A stretch of DNA of 11,451 bases, from the NCBI GenBank assembly GCA_016209865.1, contig JACQVL010000170.1, forward strand, positions 1-11,451, read 5' to 3'. Below the pieces are notes generated by a model. The model had not been told where the DNA came from. It ran no database searches and saw only the letters and a list, made by a program, of their open reading frames with translations. Shown here piece by piece: positions 378 to 5,994 of this stretch. A program made the position numbers and the translations under genes. Source of the stretch: Candidatus Latescibacterota bacterium. Lineage in GTDB: Bacteria; JAAXHH01; JACQVL01. The stretch's first letter is position 1, and every line of letters starts with the position of its first letter.

Positions 378-379
378 TC
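345..379 (-). repeat. Five tandem degenerate heptamers, consensus G(G/A)TTnGG
   Basis: Read on the minus strand, the units are GATTCGG, GGTTCGG, GATTAGG, GGTTTGG and GGTTCGG, an exact 7-bp period over 35 bases. The first unit begins inside the TGA stop codon (378-380) of the deacylase gene, so the repeat starts where coding ends. Several other gaps in this window hold short-period repeats with different cores. Function is unknown. Comparison with the heptameric STRR sequences of cyanobacteria is by form only. Confidence 0.7.
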
Positions 380-2069
380 ACGCCCGCCTCAACGCCTTCC
401 CCGGTAACGCGCCCGTGTGTTTTCCCTGCTTGATGACGACTGTGCCGTTGACCAGGACGTACTCGATGCCGACCGGGTACTGGTGCGGGTCGAGAAAATC
501 GGCCTGGTCGGCGATTGTCTGCGGGTTGAACACGACCACATCGGCGGCGCAGCCCACGTCGATCCGGCCGCGGTCTTTCAGACCTAACCGCTGTGCAGGC
601 ATCCCGCTCATCTTGTGGATGGCGGTCGGCAGGTCGAGGAGCTTCTCCTCCCGGACGTACTTTCCTAACACGCGCGGGAACGTCCCGTAGAACCGGGGAT
701 GTGGCGTGGATTTGCTCAACACACCGTACGGGGCGACCGCCGTCCCATCGGAGGCAATCATGACGAGGGGGTGGGAGATGACCCGCTTGAGTTCGTCCTC
801 GCTCATCCCGAACCCGACCATCTCGACACTCGCCCGCTCTTCGATCAGGAGGTTCGTGACGAACTCGAACGGGTCCTGCTGTGTCGCCTCGACGATCTGC
901 GAGACCCGCTTCCCCTGAAATGGCCGGTTTTTATTCAGGGTGACAGAGGTGATCATGACCGCGTCCCACGCCCCTAACATGTCCACTTTGGCGAGCACCG
1001 CCTCTTTGATCGTCGGGAGTTGCTGCGCATCCTGAAGGCGTTCGATGAACGAGTCCGTCCCCCCATCACGCGACCACAAGGGGAACAGGTTCGTCAGGCC
1101 GGTCGCGTAAGCGATGTACGGGTACCGGTCGCACGCGATGTCCAGGCCGTCTGCGTTGGCCTGCTCGATCTTTTTCAACACCTCGAAGATCTTGCCCCAG
1201 TTCCGGCGGCCCGATGCCTTGACGTGAGAAATCTGCAGCCCGATCTCCGCGGCCCGCGCGGTCGCGATCGCCTCGTCGATCGCTTCCAGCAGAGTGTCGT
1301 CCTCGTTCCGGATGTGGGTGGCATAGAGGACGCCGTAAGATTTCGCCGTCCGGCACAGCTCAGAGATTTCGTCGAGCGTCGCAAAGCCGCCGGGGGGGTA
1401 CTCCAGGCCGGAGGACAGACCCCAGGCGCCCGTGGCGATCGCTTTATCGACCAGCGTCTTCATCTCGCCGACCTGCGGGAGGGTTGCCGGGACGTTCTCC
1501 TGGCCGACGACGAGTTCCCGGATCGTCCCCTGGCCGACGAAGGAGATGAAATTCACACCGATGCCTTGCTGTTCAAGTCGGTTGAACAGCCCGCGAAAAT
1601 CCTGCCAGTCGATCTCGATCCCGTATCTTTTACCCGGCCCGTCCTGCAGCCGTTTCCGCATGTCGGGCGAGAGCGGGGCGAGGGAACTGCCGTCCTGCCC
1701 GGCCACCTCGGTCGTCACTCCCTGGCGCGCTTTGCTCTCCGCTTTCGGGTTGGCGAGCAGGGTCAGGTCGGTATGGGAGTGGATGTCGATGAACCCGGGC
1801 GCAACCACCAGCCCTCGCGCGTCGATCACCGTCTTCCCGCCCTTCTGAGCGAGGTGGCCGATCTCGACGATCTGCTGCCCGATGATGCCGATATCCGCCC
1901 GGTACGACGCGGCTCCGGTCCCGTCGATCACCGTCCCGTTCTGGATGAGAACGTCGAACGCGGGCGGTTTCTGACAGCCGGCGTTAAGGGACGTGGAGAG
2001 GCTGCCGAACGTCGCGCCCGCGCTGGCCGTGCCCAGCGTCTTGAGAAACATCCGCCGTGTCCAGGCCAT
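378..2069 (-). CDS. Tat-exported N-acyl-D-amino-acid deacylase-like amidohydrolase
   Basis: A 563-aa member of the amidohydrolase superfamily in the D-aminoacylase/dihydroorotase-like branch. Such enzymes hydrolyse N-acyl-D-amino acids or related amides at a metal centre. Visible motifs are a twin-arginine signal TRRMFLK near residues 4-10, a possible lipobox-like LNAGC ending at Cys32 (imperfect, with Asn at -3), the metal-binding HSHTD at 97-101, GQDG at 124-127, His252 in ATHIRNE, His282 in QISHVKASG and Asp441 in IASDGTA. In characterised D-aminoacylases the position of Asp126 is a metal-bridging Cys in a GNCG motif, so the substrate may differ. I chose ATG 2067-2069 because GGAG sits six bases upstream; a TTG twelve bases earlier has no such site. 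It is the last gene of the four-gene minus-strand cluster, 158 bp behind the aminotransferase gene. The family assignment is firm, the exact substrate unknown. Confidence 0.9.
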   Translation of the reverse strand: MAWTRRMFLKTLGTASAGATFGSLSTSLNAGCQKPPAFDVLIQNGTVIDGTGAASYRADIGIIGQQIVEIGHLAQKGGKTVIDARGLVVAPGFIDIHSHTDLTLLANPKAESKARQGVTTEVAGQDGSSLAPLSPDMRKRLQDGPGKRYGIEIDWQDFRGLFNRLEQQGIGVNFISFVGQGTIRELVVGQENVPATLPQVGEMKTLVDKAIATGAWGLSSGLEYPPGGFATLDEISELCRTAKSYGVLYATHIRNEDDTLLEAIDEAIATARAAEIGLQISHVKASGRRNWGKIFEVLKKIEQANADGLDIACDRYPYIAYATGLTNLFPLWSRDGGTDSFIERLQDAQQLPTIKEAVLAKVDMLGAWDAVMITSVTLNKNRPFQGKRVSQIVEATQQDPFEFVTNLLIEERASVEMVGFGMSEDELKRVISHPLVMIASDGTAVAPYGVLSKSTPHPRFYGTFPRVLGKYVREEKLLDLPTAIHKMSGMPAQRLGLKDRGRIDVGCAADVVVFNPQTIADQADFLDPHQYPVGIEYVLVNGTVVIKQGKHTGALPGKALRRA

Positions 2070-2088
2070 GCGATACTCCAAAACACGA

Positions 2089-2116
2089 CCGCCGGAGTCA
2101 TGCTTCGCTCCGGCGG
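2089..2116 (-). terminator. Perfect 9-bp GC-rich hairpin upstream of the deacylase gene (terminator or attenuator candidate)
   Basis: The arms ccgccggag (2089-2097) and ctccggcgg (2108-2116) pair perfectly around a 10-base loop. On the minus strand the stem is followed by TCGTGTTTT and then by the GGAG ribosome site of the deacylase gene. The short T-run makes it terminator-like but weak. Its position, in the leader between aminotransferase and deacylase, would let it reduce or condition read-through into the last gene. It could equally be a stabilising 5' stem or a dispersed palindromic repeat. Confidence 0.45.
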
Positions 2117-2171
2117 CTGGCGATCGATACTGTTGAGCAGATGGGCAGCAGGCAGGGAGACAGTGGTCTTA

Positions 2172-2200
2172 ACTGCCCACTGCCCATTGCCCACCTGCCC
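2172..2200. repeat. Tandem heptamer repeat, unit (A)(C/T)TGCCC
   Basis: Plus-strand units are actgccc, actgccc, attgccc and acctgccc, with a 7-bp period except for the last, 8-base unit. The repeat lies in the 158-bp gap between the deacylase and aminotransferase genes. A nearby gcaggcaggg (2149-2158) and the ggtggg that follows at 2201 have similar composition and could pair with the repeat. It belongs to the general pattern of short-period repeats in the gaps of this window. No function is visible. Confidence 0.65.
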
Positions 2201-2227
2201 GGTGGGACGGGGGAGTCGGGGGGTACG

Positions 2228-3499
2228 TTACCCCACCGTCTTCTGACCCAGGACGTCTTTCAGCGTCGAGATGAACACCTCTAATTCCTCTTGCGTCCCG
2301 ATCGAGACACGGATGAAGTTCGGCATGTTCCACTGTCCCATACCACTCCGGATCATCACCCGGCGCTTCCTCAGCTCCCGGACGACCTCCTGAGAGTTGC
2401 GCTTGAGGTCGACCATCATGAAGTTGGTGTGGCTGGGAATGTACTCCAGTCCCATCGCCTTAAATTCACTGTACAGGTAATTCTTCCCGTCGGCGACGAC
2501 CTTCTTCGAGCGCCCCACGAAGTCGTCGTCCTCGATCGCCGCGGTTGCGGCCGCGTCACTCAAGACGGAGAGGCCGCCGCCGAACCCGGAGTACAGCATC
2601 AACTTCCCGAGCATCTTCGGCCCGGCGATCGCGTACCCGATCCGCATCCCGGCCAGCCCGTAGATCTTCGAGAAGGTTCGGGCGACGATCACGTTCTCCC
2701 GGCTGAGCGCCAGGTCGATCCCATCCTTGTAATTCGGCTCCTGGGCGAAATGGATGTACGCCTCGTCGATGAAGACCATGACGGTGGGCGGGACGGCGTC
2801 GATAAATTTAGTCAGGTCGTCGTGGGAGATGAGCGTCCCGGTCGGGTTGTTCGGGTTGGTAATCGTCACGCAGGTCGTCTTCGGGGTAATCGCCTTCAGC
2901 ATGGCGTTCAGGTCATGCTTGTAATCAGTCGTCAGTGGCACCCGGATGACGTTCGTCTTCGCGCCCGTCATCTTGAACGACTCGGTCACCATGGCGACCT
3001 GACCGTACCCGGGCTGCGCCTCGATCACCTCACCCGTGCCATCCCCGACGGTCATCAGTCCGATCGTCTGGAGGATCGGCCCGGACCCGGCGCTGATCAT
3101 GATGCGGAGTTTCTCGCGGAGGGCCCGGAAGGAGGCCGGGTTGTCGAAGTCGAGGTTTGCCAGGTTGAAATCCCCCAGCGCGATGCCGTGCAGTTTGTGG
3201 AGCATGAACGGCAGCCGCGTCCCGAAGGAATACCGGTTCATCTCGAACATGTGCTGAGCGACCGCTTCGATCGCGCGCGGGGATGCGCCCAGCGGGTTCT
3301 CGTTCGCGCTGATCTGAACGATCCCCTTCATGACGCCGTTGCCCTGGATGTCATCCATGGTCAACGGCCGCTTACCGGTGACGAGCGCCTCGGCCAGCGC
3401 CAGGCGGGAGCTGAGCGAGAGCGCTCCTGCGCCCACTAACGCCCCTTTCAGAAAACCCCGACGCGAGACCGCATGGCCGAGTTCTTTCGAGAATTCCAT
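2228..3499 (-). CDS. Tat-exported histidinol-phosphate-aminotransferase-like PLP enzyme
   Basis: A 423-aa fold-type I aminotransferase closest in motifs to the HisC family, which transfers an amino group using pyridoxal phosphate. It shows SANENPLGASP at 64-74, NPNNPTG at 215-221, DEAY at 245-248, TFSK at 275-278 with the predicted Schiff-base Lys278, MRIGY at 285-289 and IRVSIG with Arg397. Unlike biosynthetic HisC it begins with a twin-arginine signal (SRRGFLKG, 12-19), a hydrophobic stretch and a plausible ALA cleavage site at 34-36. Tat export of a folded, cofactor-loaded enzyme is sensible for a PLP protein. A near-perfect ribosome site AAGGAGGG lies just upstream of ATG 3499. It sits 61 bp after the GMC oxidoreductase gene and before the deacylase gene, so a periplasmic role on an amino compound is more likely than histidine biosynthesis. 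Its substrate is unknown. Confidence 0.88.
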   Translation of the reverse strand: MEFSKELGHAVSRRGFLKGALVGAGALSLSSRLALAEALVTGKRPLTMDDIQGNGVMKGIVQISANENPLGASPRAIEAVAQHMFEMNRYSFGTRLPFMLHKLHGIALGDFNLANLDFDNPASFRALREKLRIMISAGSGPILQTIGLMTVGDGTGEVIEAQPGYGQVAMVTESFKMTGAKTNVIRVPLTTDYKHDLNAMLKAITPKTTCVTITNPNNPTGTLISHDDLTKFIDAVPPTVMVFIDEAYIHFAQEPNYKDGIDLALSRENVIVARTFSKIYGLAGMRIGYAIAGPKMLGKLMLYSGFGGGLSVLSDAAATAAIEDDDFVGRSKKVVADGKNYLYSEFKAMGLEYIPSHTNFMMVDLKRNSQEVVRELRKRRVMIRSGMGQWNMPNFIRVSIGTQEELEVFISTLKDVLGQKTVG

Positions 3500-3517
3500 A
3501 GAGACCCTCCTTCAAGT

Positions 3518-3556
3518 GAACGTTGAAACGTGAGAACGTTAGAACGTTCAAACGTT
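3518..3556. repeat. Short repeat cluster with core GAACGTT
   Basis: The gap between the GMC and aminotransferase genes contains gaacgtt (3518), gaaacgt (3525), gaacgtt (3534), gaacgtt (3542) and caaacgtt (3549). The core AACGTT is itself palindromic and the spacing is 7 to 9 bases. A similar gaacgttg occurs at 45-52 inside the element at the left edge. It could be a regulator-binding array, but the irregular spacing and the presence of different repeats in the other gaps favour a non-regulatory intergenic repeat. Confidence 0.6.
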
Positions 3557-3560
3557 GTGA

Positions 3561-5222
3561 TTACCCGATATTCCCCTTCTTCATCTGATCGACGATGTAC
3601 TCGGCCGCACGGAACGACAGCGCCTGGATGGTGAGCGTCGGGTTGCTCTTCCCGGACGTGACAAAGCTGCTGCCGTCGACGAGAAAGAGGTTTTTCACGT
3701 CATGCGACTGGTTAAATTTATTGACGACGGATGTCCTGGGATCGTTCCCCATCCGGCAGGTGCCTAACAGATGGGCATCTCCCTTCGGGACCGCGTTCGG
3801 CGTGGCGACGATCCGCGTCGCCCCGGCGGCGGCGAGCAGTTCTTTCGCCCGCTCCCGGAAGAAATCCCCGACCGTGAACTCGTTCGGGTGAGACTTGTAT
3901 GTGATGCAGGGGACCGGTAGTCCCCACTTGTCTTTCACCTTCGCATCGAGGCTGACGGTGTTCGTCTCCTGCGAAAGCGACTCCATGCTCGCTAAGGCGA
4001 CCATCTGCCGGTTGAAGTTCTGGATAATCCATTGCTTTCGTTCCGGCCCCCAGCGCGGCAGCCGGGGGATGTTGAGCTGCGAGAACGCTAAGAGTTCCCC
4101 ATCCCCGCGCGGCTCGAGCACCCCCCCGCCGAAGAACCCGTGTTTGCCGGGGTTCGGCTCGTAGAAGTCCTGGATCACCCGGGTGTCCATCACTCCCTTG
4201 TATTCGTTCAACTCCTTCTCGAAAAACCCGCGGGCGCTCTGATAATAATTGAACATCAGGTGCTTGCCCACATACCCGCTGCTGTTGGCCAGCCCGTTCG
4301 GGAAACGGGTCGAAGGAGACATCAGCAGCAACCGGGGGGTAAAGACGCCGTTGCAGCACACGACGACGACACGGGCTTCCAGCCGGTGTTCGTTGAGGTT
4401 TTTATCCAGGTACACCACTCCGGTCGCCAGTCCCTGTTCGTCGACCGTGATCTCCCGGACGCAGCAATCCGCCCGGATCTCGCACTTGCCGGTGCGCAGC
4501 GCCTTGGGGATGACCGTGACGAGGGTGCTCGACTTGGCCTCCATCGTGCATCCGTACCCCTCGCAGAACCCGCAGTTCATGCACGCCCCTCGGCTGTCGT
4601 AGTCCTGCGTGATGATGGCCATCGGGGTCGGGTACGAGTGCCAGCCGAGCTTCTGCGCCGCTAAGTCGGCGAGCGCGCCGGAACTCTTGCGCGCCACCGG
4701 GGGCAGCGGGTACGGCTTGCGGCGCGGCGGGTCGAACGGGTTCGCGCTCGCCAGACCGGACACTCCGATCTCGTACTCCGCTTTCTCGTAATACGGTTCC
4801 AGGTCCCAGTAGTCGACCGGCCAGTCCTGGACGTCCGCCCCGGCGACCGGCCCGAACAGGCTGCGCTCTTTGAAGTCCGATTCGTGCAGCCGCCAGGAAA
4901 TCCCGGTGTAGTGGACGGTGCCGCCCCCGACGTTGCTCTGCATGTTGACCGAGTACACGACGGCCGGCTCGGTGTTAGCGTCCGGACGGTAAGTGTTGGG
5001 CTGATCGTACTTGATCAGTCCGCGCAGCTTCATGCACTTGAGCTCATCCTGGACGTAATCCCGCGTCTTCAAGAACGGCCCCATCTCGAACGCGACGACC
5101 TTCAGGCCCCGGGTGCTCAGTTCCTTCATCATCACCCCACCGGCCGCCCCCGTCCCGATGACGATCACGTCCGGGCGGTCGATCTTGATTGTGGGCAAGG
5201 CCATCGCCATGTCTGACGTCAT
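3561..5222 (-). CDS. GMC family FAD oxidoreductase, gluconate-2-dehydrogenase flavoprotein-like
   Basis: A 553-aa flavoprotein of the glucose-methanol-choline family, which oxidises alcohol groups of sugars, polyols or similar substrates with FAD. The N-terminal dinucleotide fold is VIVIGTGAAGG (GxGxxG at 23-29). NVGGGTVHYTG near 98-108 is a family FAD-region motif. The C-terminal region has HLLGTCRMG with the predicted catalytic His483, then LVDGSSF and SNPTLT with Asn527, the usual His/Asn pair. Four cysteines in CMNCGFCEGYGC (214, 217, 220, 225) suggest an Fe-S cluster of the kind reported in bacterial FAD-dependent glucose dehydrogenases. There is no signal peptide of its own, so it probably crosses the membrane by hitchhiking on the Tat-bearing small subunit encoded directly upstream. 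ATG 5220-5222 is preferred over TTG 5223-5225 because AAGGAG (5230-5235) is seven bases away. No cytochrome c electron acceptor is encoded nearby. Confidence 0.92.
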   Translation of the reverse strand: MTSDMAMALPTIKIDRPDVIVIGTGAAGGVMMKELSTRGLKVVAFEMGPFLKTRDYVQDELKCMKLRGLIKYDQPNTYRPDANTEPAVVYSVNMQSNVGGGTVHYTGISWRLHESDFKERSLFGPVAGADVQDWPVDYWDLEPYYEKAEYEIGVSGLASANPFDPPRRKPYPLPPVARKSSGALADLAAQKLGWHSYPTPMAIITQDYDSRGACMNCGFCEGYGCTMEAKSSTLVTVIPKALRTGKCEIRADCCVREITVDEQGLATGVVYLDKNLNEHRLEARVVVVCCNGVFTPRLLLMSPSTRFPNGLANSSGYVGKHLMFNYYQSARGFFEKELNEYKGVMDTRVIQDFYEPNPGKHGFFGGGVLEPRGDGELLAFSQLNIPRLPRWGPERKQWIIQNFNRQMVALASMESLSQETNTVSLDAKVKDKWGLPVPCITYKSHPNEFTVGDFFRERAKELLAAAGATRIVATPNAVPKGDAHLLGTCRMGNDPRTSVVNKFNQSHDVKNLFLVDGSSFVTSGKSNPTLTIQALSFRAAEYIVDQMKKGNIG

Positions 5223-5238
5223 CAAGGAACTCCTTTTT

Positions 5239-5311
5239 ACAGGGATGAACAGGATAGTCAGGATAGTCTTGACTGCTCATTCTGAATCCTGTCTATCCTG
5301 TTCATCCCTGT
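5239..5311. repeat. Long palindrome (19-bp perfect arms, about 26-bp stem) between dehydrogenase subunit genes
   Basis: The arm acagggatgaacaggatag (5239-5257) is exactly complementary to ctatcctgttcatccctgt (5293-5311). After one mismatch the stem continues with caggat (5259-5264) against atcctg (5286-5291), leaving a 21-base loop. The left arm also contains a 9-bp period (gatgaacag, gataGTCag, gatagtctt). The outer base of the right arm is part of the small-subunit TAA stop codon (5311-5313), and the left arm ends four bases from the ribosome site of the GMC gene. It could be a dispersed palindromic element, an mRNA-stabilising stem or a weak terminator controlling subunit ratio. No U-tract follows on the minus strand close enough to call a clear terminator, although TAAAAAGG comes next. 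Confidence 0.75.
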
Positions 5312-5994
5312 TATTTCCTCTTCTTGGACGGTTGTTCTTGCTTCCCCGGCCCCTTGTACGGGACGAACGGGGGGTATTCGATCTCAGGAAGGTTCGCGTC
5401 ATAAGCCCCGAACGGCGGGTCGTACCCGAACGCTTTCGGGCCGGGGAAGTTGACCATCTTCCAGCCGATCTCATTGTGGTTCCCCCCGTACTGCGGGTCG
5501 GCGAACAGCCCCTCCATCGTGTGTTCGATCACCAGCCGCAGGAAGGTTTGACTGGGGAGGGCGGTGTCCGTCCAGCCTGGCGGGGGTTCGCGCTTATCTA
5601 TCGCGGTCATCAGCTCGACCTGCTGATCGACTGTCAGGTCGATGAACTTTTTGCCGTACGCCGTCTCGCTCGCCTTGTCCATCAGGTCGATGCCTGTGAG
5701 GTAATTCGGCCTGTCTTCGGCGTTGTGGGTGGTGAGGGAGCGGTCGATGTAGTCGATCACATGGGCATCTGTCGCCCCCGGAGACTGGTCGTCGGCGGGC
5801 ATGATGCGCTCGGCCATCGCTTCGATCGTCAACCCCTGCTGTTCGGTGAACGACACAAACTCTCGAGAGGGCTTGCTCGCCTGTCGGGTGAGGGCCTTCC
5901 CGGCGGTGCCGAGCACGCCCAGAGAGATGACCCCGCCTGTGACTTGTCCTGTGCGGGATAGGAACGCTCTGCGTGAGAGACGACGGTCATCCAT
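5311..5994 (-). CDS. Tat-exported gluconate 2-dehydrogenase subunit 3 family protein
   Basis: A 227-aa small subunit of the gluconate 2-dehydrogenase subunit 3 family, partner of GMC-type dehydrogenases at the outer face of the inner membrane. Residues 7-13 are SRRAFLS followed by a hydrophobic stretch rich in Gly, Val and Leu, a clear twin-arginine signal. The motif ADPQYGGNHNEIGWKMVNFPGP near 165-186 is the family signature. The C-terminus is lysine-rich (SKKRK). In characterised FAD-dependent dehydrogenases this subunit carries the Tat signal for the flavoprotein, which matches the GMC gene lying 88 bp downstream without a signal. ATG 5994 is the only start that keeps the full signal; its ribosome site (GGAG, ten bases away) is weak. 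It is the first gene of the minus-strand cluster. Its substrate cannot be read from the sequence. Confidence 0.9.
   Translation of the reverse strand: MDDRRLSRRAFLSRTGQVTGGVISLGVLGTAGKALTRQASKPSREFVSFTEQQGLTIEAMAERIMPADDQSPGATDAHVIDYIDRSLTTHNAEDRPNYLTGIDLMDKASETAYGKKFIDLTVDQQVELMTAIDKREPPPGWTDTALPSQTFLRLVIEHTMEGLFADPQYGGNHNEIGWKMVNFPGPKAFGYDPPFGAYDANLPEIEYPPFVPYKGPGKQEQPSKKRK

Follow-up and report, generated by a model that had tools for sequence, protein, structure and literature searches.

A putatively Tat-exported aminotransferase linked to a GMC dehydrogenase and its small subunit in a Candidatus Latescibacterota bacterium and its relatives

In the FAD-dependent glucose dehydrogenases (FAD-GDH) and fructose dehydrogenases (FDH), a "hitch-hiker" small subunit carries a GMC flavoprotein that has no signal of its own, and a 3Fe-4S cluster and a cytochrome c subunit are documented for the class (PMC9727119). 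Exported aminotransferases are represented in the literature, according to a full-text search, by essentially PtaA and PvdN only. Both proteins are exported by the twin-arginine translocation (Tat) pathway already loaded with pyridoxal 5'-phosphate (PLP), and PtaA, which tailors pyoverdine in Pseudomonas, is a transaminase that works in the periplasm, where the regeneration of its PLP was left open (PMC6206403). Moreover, a flavin dehydrogenase and a PLP aminotransferase cooperate in gentamicin biosynthesis, in which GenQ makes a carbonyl that GenB1 aminates (PMC4039129). Here, a stretch of 11,451 nt from a Candidatus Latescibacterota bacterium (contig JACQVL010000170.1, hereafter the window) is described, in which the genes for a GMC dehydrogenase, its putative small subunit and a HisC-like aminotransferase lie side by side, a trio that is linked in all 13 testable genomes of the order, the window included. 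Together with a gene for a D-aminoacylase-like protein, they form a run of four genes that open reading frame (ORF) calls and a Pfam search of the window place co-directionally on the minus strand. The identities given to them in a preliminary description of this DNA (GMC dehydrogenase, small subunit, aminotransferase and D-aminoacylase family) are borne out by Pfam matches at the following positions:

5311..5994, minus strand: Gluconate_2-dh3 small subunit (PF13618, 4.8e-32), with the Tat signal SRRAFL
3561..5225, minus strand: GMC flavoprotein dehydrogenase, catalytic subunit (GMC_oxred_N and GMC_oxred_C, PF00732 and PF05199, 1.1e-12 and 1.2e-22), without a signal of its own
2228..3499, minus strand: HisC-like class-I PLP aminotransferase (Aminotran_1_2, 2.8e-43), with the Tat signal SRRGFL
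378..2069, minus strand: D-aminoacylase-like amidohydrolase (Amidohydro_3, 1.4e-28), with a Tat signal of the lipoprotein type, TRRMFL...NAGC

The comparison covers 16 genomes of the order, which is uncultivated, namely the window genome (3.75 Mb in 356 contigs, 83% complete) and 15 relatives. Public relatives are metagenome-assembled genomes (MAGs) deposited as Candidatus Latescibacterota, Gemmatimonadetes or Zixiibacteriota, plus one uncultured-bacterium bin. The arrangement small subunit-GMC-aminotransferase is found in the window and in G002, G003, G005, G006, G007, G008, G010, G011, G012 and G014; G009 has the tail of the GMC gene next to the aminotransferase gene where a contig stops, and G013 keeps the three genes linked in a rearranged order. 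Two relatives, G001 and G015, were left out of the count because their contigs end at the locus, and G004 (95% complete) has neither a GMC nor an aminotransferase orthologue. The genes that lie upstream of the four in the window, coding for a DUF4153 protein, an HTH_34 regulator, a membrane-like protein without a family match and UvrC (uvrC), have no match in the trio loci of the relatives, indicating that the trio is retained although its flanks vary. With high confidence, the three genes are conserved as a unit of which the fourth is not part. The preliminary description had proposed a cluster of four and suggested checking its neighbourhood in other genomes; the first three pass this check across the order, while the adjacency of the deacylase-like gene is confined to the window genome.

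The export of these proteins is read from their N-termini. The RR-x-F-L signals previously noticed on the small subunit, the aminotransferase and the deacylase-like protein recur in the orthologues of all three, and the motif of the small subunit is kept in the order and in relatives from Acidobacteria, Verrucomicrobia and Bacteroidales. As a background, 211 proteins no shorter than 150 amino acids were taken from the studied and neighbouring loci; 19 of them combine the motif with a hydrophobic stretch, and all but about three of these 19 belong to the same gene families. Since the combination is so rare, it is very unlikely to occur by chance in three of four neighbours. The window amidohydrolase fell below the hydrophobicity threshold of the motif script and its G007 orthologue passed it. 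The signals of its orthologues end in lipobox-like motifs (LDGC, LGGC), of which the LNAGC of the window copy is a weaker match; overall, the protein resembles a Tat lipoprotein. Motif and conservation point to Tat export of the small subunit, the aminotransferase and the amidohydrolase. The GMC flavoprotein is probably exported by piggyback on the small subunit, and its lack of a signal is as expected in that case. The earlier proposals of a carried flavoprotein, an arrangement documented in FAD-GDH and FDH (PMC9727119), and of an extracytoplasmic aminotransferase, for which PtaA provides a precedent (PMC6206403), are supported. The alternative that the signals are non-functional and the enzymes cytoplasmic is given hardly any weight: the motif, its position and the hydrophobic stretch are kept across genera and paralogues, most non-exported HisC relatives have no N-terminal extension, and TatC is present in five of the five genomes checked, the window genome among them.

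The solved structures nearest to the GMC protein are the large subunits of FAD-GDH and FDH. Its identity across the order is 71-75%, the catalytic His485 and Asn528 are invariant, and the Asn that precedes the catalytic His in FDH is replaced by Ala. An alignment of six sequences shows three invariant cysteines, Cys218, Cys221 and Cys226; two of them fall in the columns of the cluster-binding Cys of FAD-GDH, and the third lies a few residues off. These cysteines make a putative Cys-ligated Fe-S cluster likely, although their CxxCxxxxC spacing differs from that of FAD-GDH. The combination of a GMC catalytic subunit and a Tat-signalled PF13618 small subunit is that of the gluconate 2-dehydrogenase type. 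The likeness to the gluconate 2-dehydrogenase, FAD-GDH and FDH complexes thus lies in the Cys triad, in the signalled small subunit and in the cytochrome c genes adjacent to the trio in one relative, whereas the window has no gene for a triheme cytochrome subunit and its PF13618 subunit matches no solved structure. Specifically, the small subunit has neither a sequence nor a fold match in the PDB (model pLDDT 75, confident in the core only), and a kinship with the FAD-GDH gamma subunit was rejected on these grounds. The relative with adjacent cytochromes is G013, whose cluster (L045:2160-6727) comprises the aminotransferase, a monoheme cytochrome c, a NapC/NirT-like multiheme cytochrome, a small membrane protein, the small subunit, the GMC protein and a further multiheme cytochrome; the in-house gene calls are poor in this lower-GC genome and its counts are lower bounds.

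The curated model with the highest score for the aminotransferase is PRK09105 (NF006580), which extends into the Tat-signal region of the proteins of the order; the score of 245.5 bits is under the cut-off of 444, and the function of this subfamily is itself undescribed. The HisC model TIGR01141 gives 229.8 bits, under its cut-off of 276.55, and the PtaA model NF051461, with a match that spans most of the length, gives 195 bits against a cut-off of 500. HisC is the best match for the predicted fold (pLDDT 71), with a TM-score by target length of 0.85 to 3ffh, and the PLP residues Lys278 (Schiff base), Asp245, Tyr248 and Arg397 are conserved. Fold, residues and signal together identify a putative Tat-exported HisC-like transaminase in the broad, PtaA/PRK09105-like sense. 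PtaA, a PLP aminotransferase that crosses the membrane by Tat together with its cofactor (PMC6206403), is the closest characterised precedent, from which the protein differs in scoring far under the PtaA cut-off, in the absence of pyoverdine genes from the window, in its pairing with a GMC enzyme and in its many paralogues per genome. A PLP enzyme that is no transaminase, such as a CobD-like decarboxylase, a GntC-like cyclodehydratase or a catalyst of PvdN-like oxidative decarboxylation, would make an external amino acceptor unnecessary. PvdN is itself an exported fold-I PLP enzyme whose chemistry is other than transamination (PMC6206403, PMC7497351), CobD structures are among the near fold matches, and the CobD and GntC models both match the protein. 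Nevertheless, their 133 and 95 bits are clearly exceeded by the 245 and 230 bits of PRK09105 and HisC, and histidinol-phosphate aminotransferases head the list of fold matches, which makes this alternative rather improbable.

The aminotransferase of the window is one member of what the sequences delineate as a lineage-wide expansion of exported aminotransferases. Tat-signalled copies number nine each in G002, G007 and G011, at least 13 in G013 and five in the incomplete window genome, which also has a separate unsignalled HisC-like gene (L038). In a tree of 76 rows, all signalled sequences form one clade (support 99/93) apart from the unsignalled HisC, and the copies of the order (group support 98/74) fall into about ten old subfamilies, most of which extend across several genera. 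None of the 272 genomes sampled outside the order has more than one match at E <= 1e-60, and few of these matches are Tat-signalled; a plasmid search returned only HisC-type matches, all below 60% identity. The loci of the expansion were collected from G000, G002, G007, G011 and G013 (L034, L044-L061, L127-L146, L219-L226). One subfamily within the exported clade (L085, L133:9387-10466) has no Tat signal and apparently went back to the cytoplasm, and a Tat-signalled paralogue of G013 (L141:5064-6311) has Arg in the column of the Schiff-base Lys, possibly as a pseudo-enzyme or through a slip of the alignment. Another exported subfamily lies downstream of a RelA/SpoT-family gene in G000 and G007 (L059:3-1945, L129:7185-10681).

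The preferred reading, to which a probability of about 0.4 is assigned, is that the trio codes for a coupled extracytoplasmic module in which oxidation is followed by amination. Outside the cytoplasm, the GMC protein, which has no signal, and the Tat-signalled small subunit would form a complex similar to gluconate and fructose dehydrogenases, and the aminotransferase would be exported by its own signal, folded and with PLP bound. The FAD of the GMC protein would oxidise an alcohol group to a ketone or aldehyde, the substrate being a sugar, a polyol or a similar compound; cytochrome c would receive the electrons by way of the Cys-ligated Fe-S cluster, and the aminotransferase would turn the carbonyl into an amine with an amino acid as the donor. 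The tight linkage, which resists rearrangement, and the joint absence of both genes from G004 suggest a shared substrate or intermediate for the two enzymes. The same succession, a flavin dehydrogenase producing a carbonyl and a PLP aminotransferase aminating it, is that of GenQ/GenB1 (Neo11/Neo18), although these involve class III aminotransferases in an antibiotic cluster, for which the text consulted describes no Tat export (PMC4039129), so that the comparison is a working analogy and not a matter of membership.

Several observations weigh against this oxidise-then-aminate reading. It would require a source of amino donor or acceptor outside the cytoplasm, and neither the window nor most relatives have a cytochrome gene close to the trio. 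The GMC and small-subunit pairs of Acidobacteria, Verrucomicrobia and Bacteroidales MAGs come without the aminotransferase, hence the dehydrogenase does not need it, and none of the other exported aminotransferase paralogues examined adjoins a GMC gene. The last two observations also favour the main rival, in which the aminotransferase runs in the deaminating direction: the two enzymes would serve one scavenging or tailoring function in parallel, the aminotransferase making a carbonyl from an amine or amino acid in the manner of PtaA, and the GMC enzyme oxidising alcohol or sugar groups separately, co-expressed but with no product handed over from oxidation to amination. PtaA deaminates a Glu residue of pyoverdine (PMC6206403), and the 195 bits obtained with its model are in line with such a role; the closeness of the aminotransferase-GMC linkage, its survival of rearrangement and the loss of both genes in G004 argue the other way, leaving parallel action unlikely, yet the most serious competitor of a coupled oxidation and amination.

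The amidohydrolase has an orthologue in 15 of the 15 relatives (58-64% identity), which is near the trio in none of those tested and lies about 480-496 kb away in G002, G007, G008 and G012, where both are on one contig. In G007 and G013 it adjoins hisF, with a hisH-like gene also present in G007 (L207:9432-12536, L211:121-6131). It belongs to the sequence family of D-aminoacylase and the subtype V amidohydrolase OngB and keeps the HxH motif, the two His metal ligands and the catalytic Asp, as well as the Lys/Tyr/Arg positions which, in OngB, touch the ligand bound in the substrate site (PMC12017989). Unlike these enzymes, it has a lipoprotein-type Tat signal and is unlinked to the trio elsewhere, and in place of the Cys/His/His metal site of D-aminoacylase the ligand Cys is Asp in 16 of 16 members of the order (window 378-2069 and L178-L193; Asp126 in the window, numbered from the ATG at 2069), while relatives beyond the order have either Cys or Asp. 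In OngB, mutation of the zinc-binding Cys leaves very low or no activity (PMC12017989). With this ligand replaced, "D-aminoacylase" is to be taken as a family name and not as a function. An analogy with oxidised-chitin degradation by OngB/OngC, in which the amidohydrolase would deacetylate GlcNAc1A, was considered, PpOngB being among the solved relatives, and dropped: OngB is cytoplasmic, it requires the Cys ligand, and its score is no better than that of D-aminoacylase.

These results bear on the pathway of the preliminary description, an extracytoplasmic route in which an N-acyl compound would be deacylated before transamination and alcohol oxidation. The co-directional genes of the window and the Tat signal of the deacylase-like protein speak for it, but the absence of linkage in every relative tested deprives a four-gene pathway of support, a gap of 158 nt follows the aminotransferase gene even in the window, and, with the Cys changed to Asp, D-aminoacylase activity is itself no more than putative. 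The deacylase-like protein does not hold its place as a pathway member, and the four-gene scheme is very improbable. Moreover, D-amino acids are not expected substrates of fold-I HisC-like aminotransferases; together with the missing linkage, this disfavours the succession of deacylation, transamination and oxidation, and oxidation followed by amination fits better.

As for the layout of the window, the GMC gene likely starts at an ATG at 5222 or 5210, and for the amidohydrolase, called as an ORF at 2081-378, the ATG at 2069 is the better start. Intergenic gaps measure 85 nt between the small-subunit and GMC genes, 61 nt between the GMC and aminotransferase genes and, from the ATG at 2069, the 158 nt already mentioned; plausible ribosome-binding sequences of the GGAG type can be read ahead of the starts that include the signals. 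One further feature lies between the small-subunit and GMC genes:

5239..5311, no strand: 26-nt inverted repeat, arms 96% complementary, spacer of 21 nt

The repeat may form an mRNA hairpin; it has one other, weaker copy in the genome and does not belong to a common repeat family. Low-complexity short repeats (e.g. TTCGGGATTAGGGGTTTGGGGTTCGGG) occupy the intergenic stretches 343-377, 2100-2227 and 3500-3560. Rfam and tRNA scans of the window gave no matches, and promoter and terminator scans yielded no more than they did on shuffled sequence.

Lastly, a literature search combining the lineage with aminotransferase or Tat found no publications. The kinds of enzyme are known, while the literature searched describes neither the fixed pairing of a GMC dehydrogenase with an aminotransferase nor an exported aminotransferase family of this size. 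A broader picture can be drawn only speculatively: the roughly ten Tat-exported transaminases per genome would be an ancient radiation that performs much amino-group chemistry outside the cytoplasm, and one of them would have been coupled to a respiratory GMC dehydrogenase, turning alcohols into amines in the periplasm and delivering electrons to cytochrome c. Since its genomes hold some nine or more Tat-signalled aminotransferases each, one of them fixed beside a GMC dehydrogenase, the order offers a concrete system in which to ask how extracytoplasmic transamination is fed and drained, and whether bacteria aminate alcohols there.

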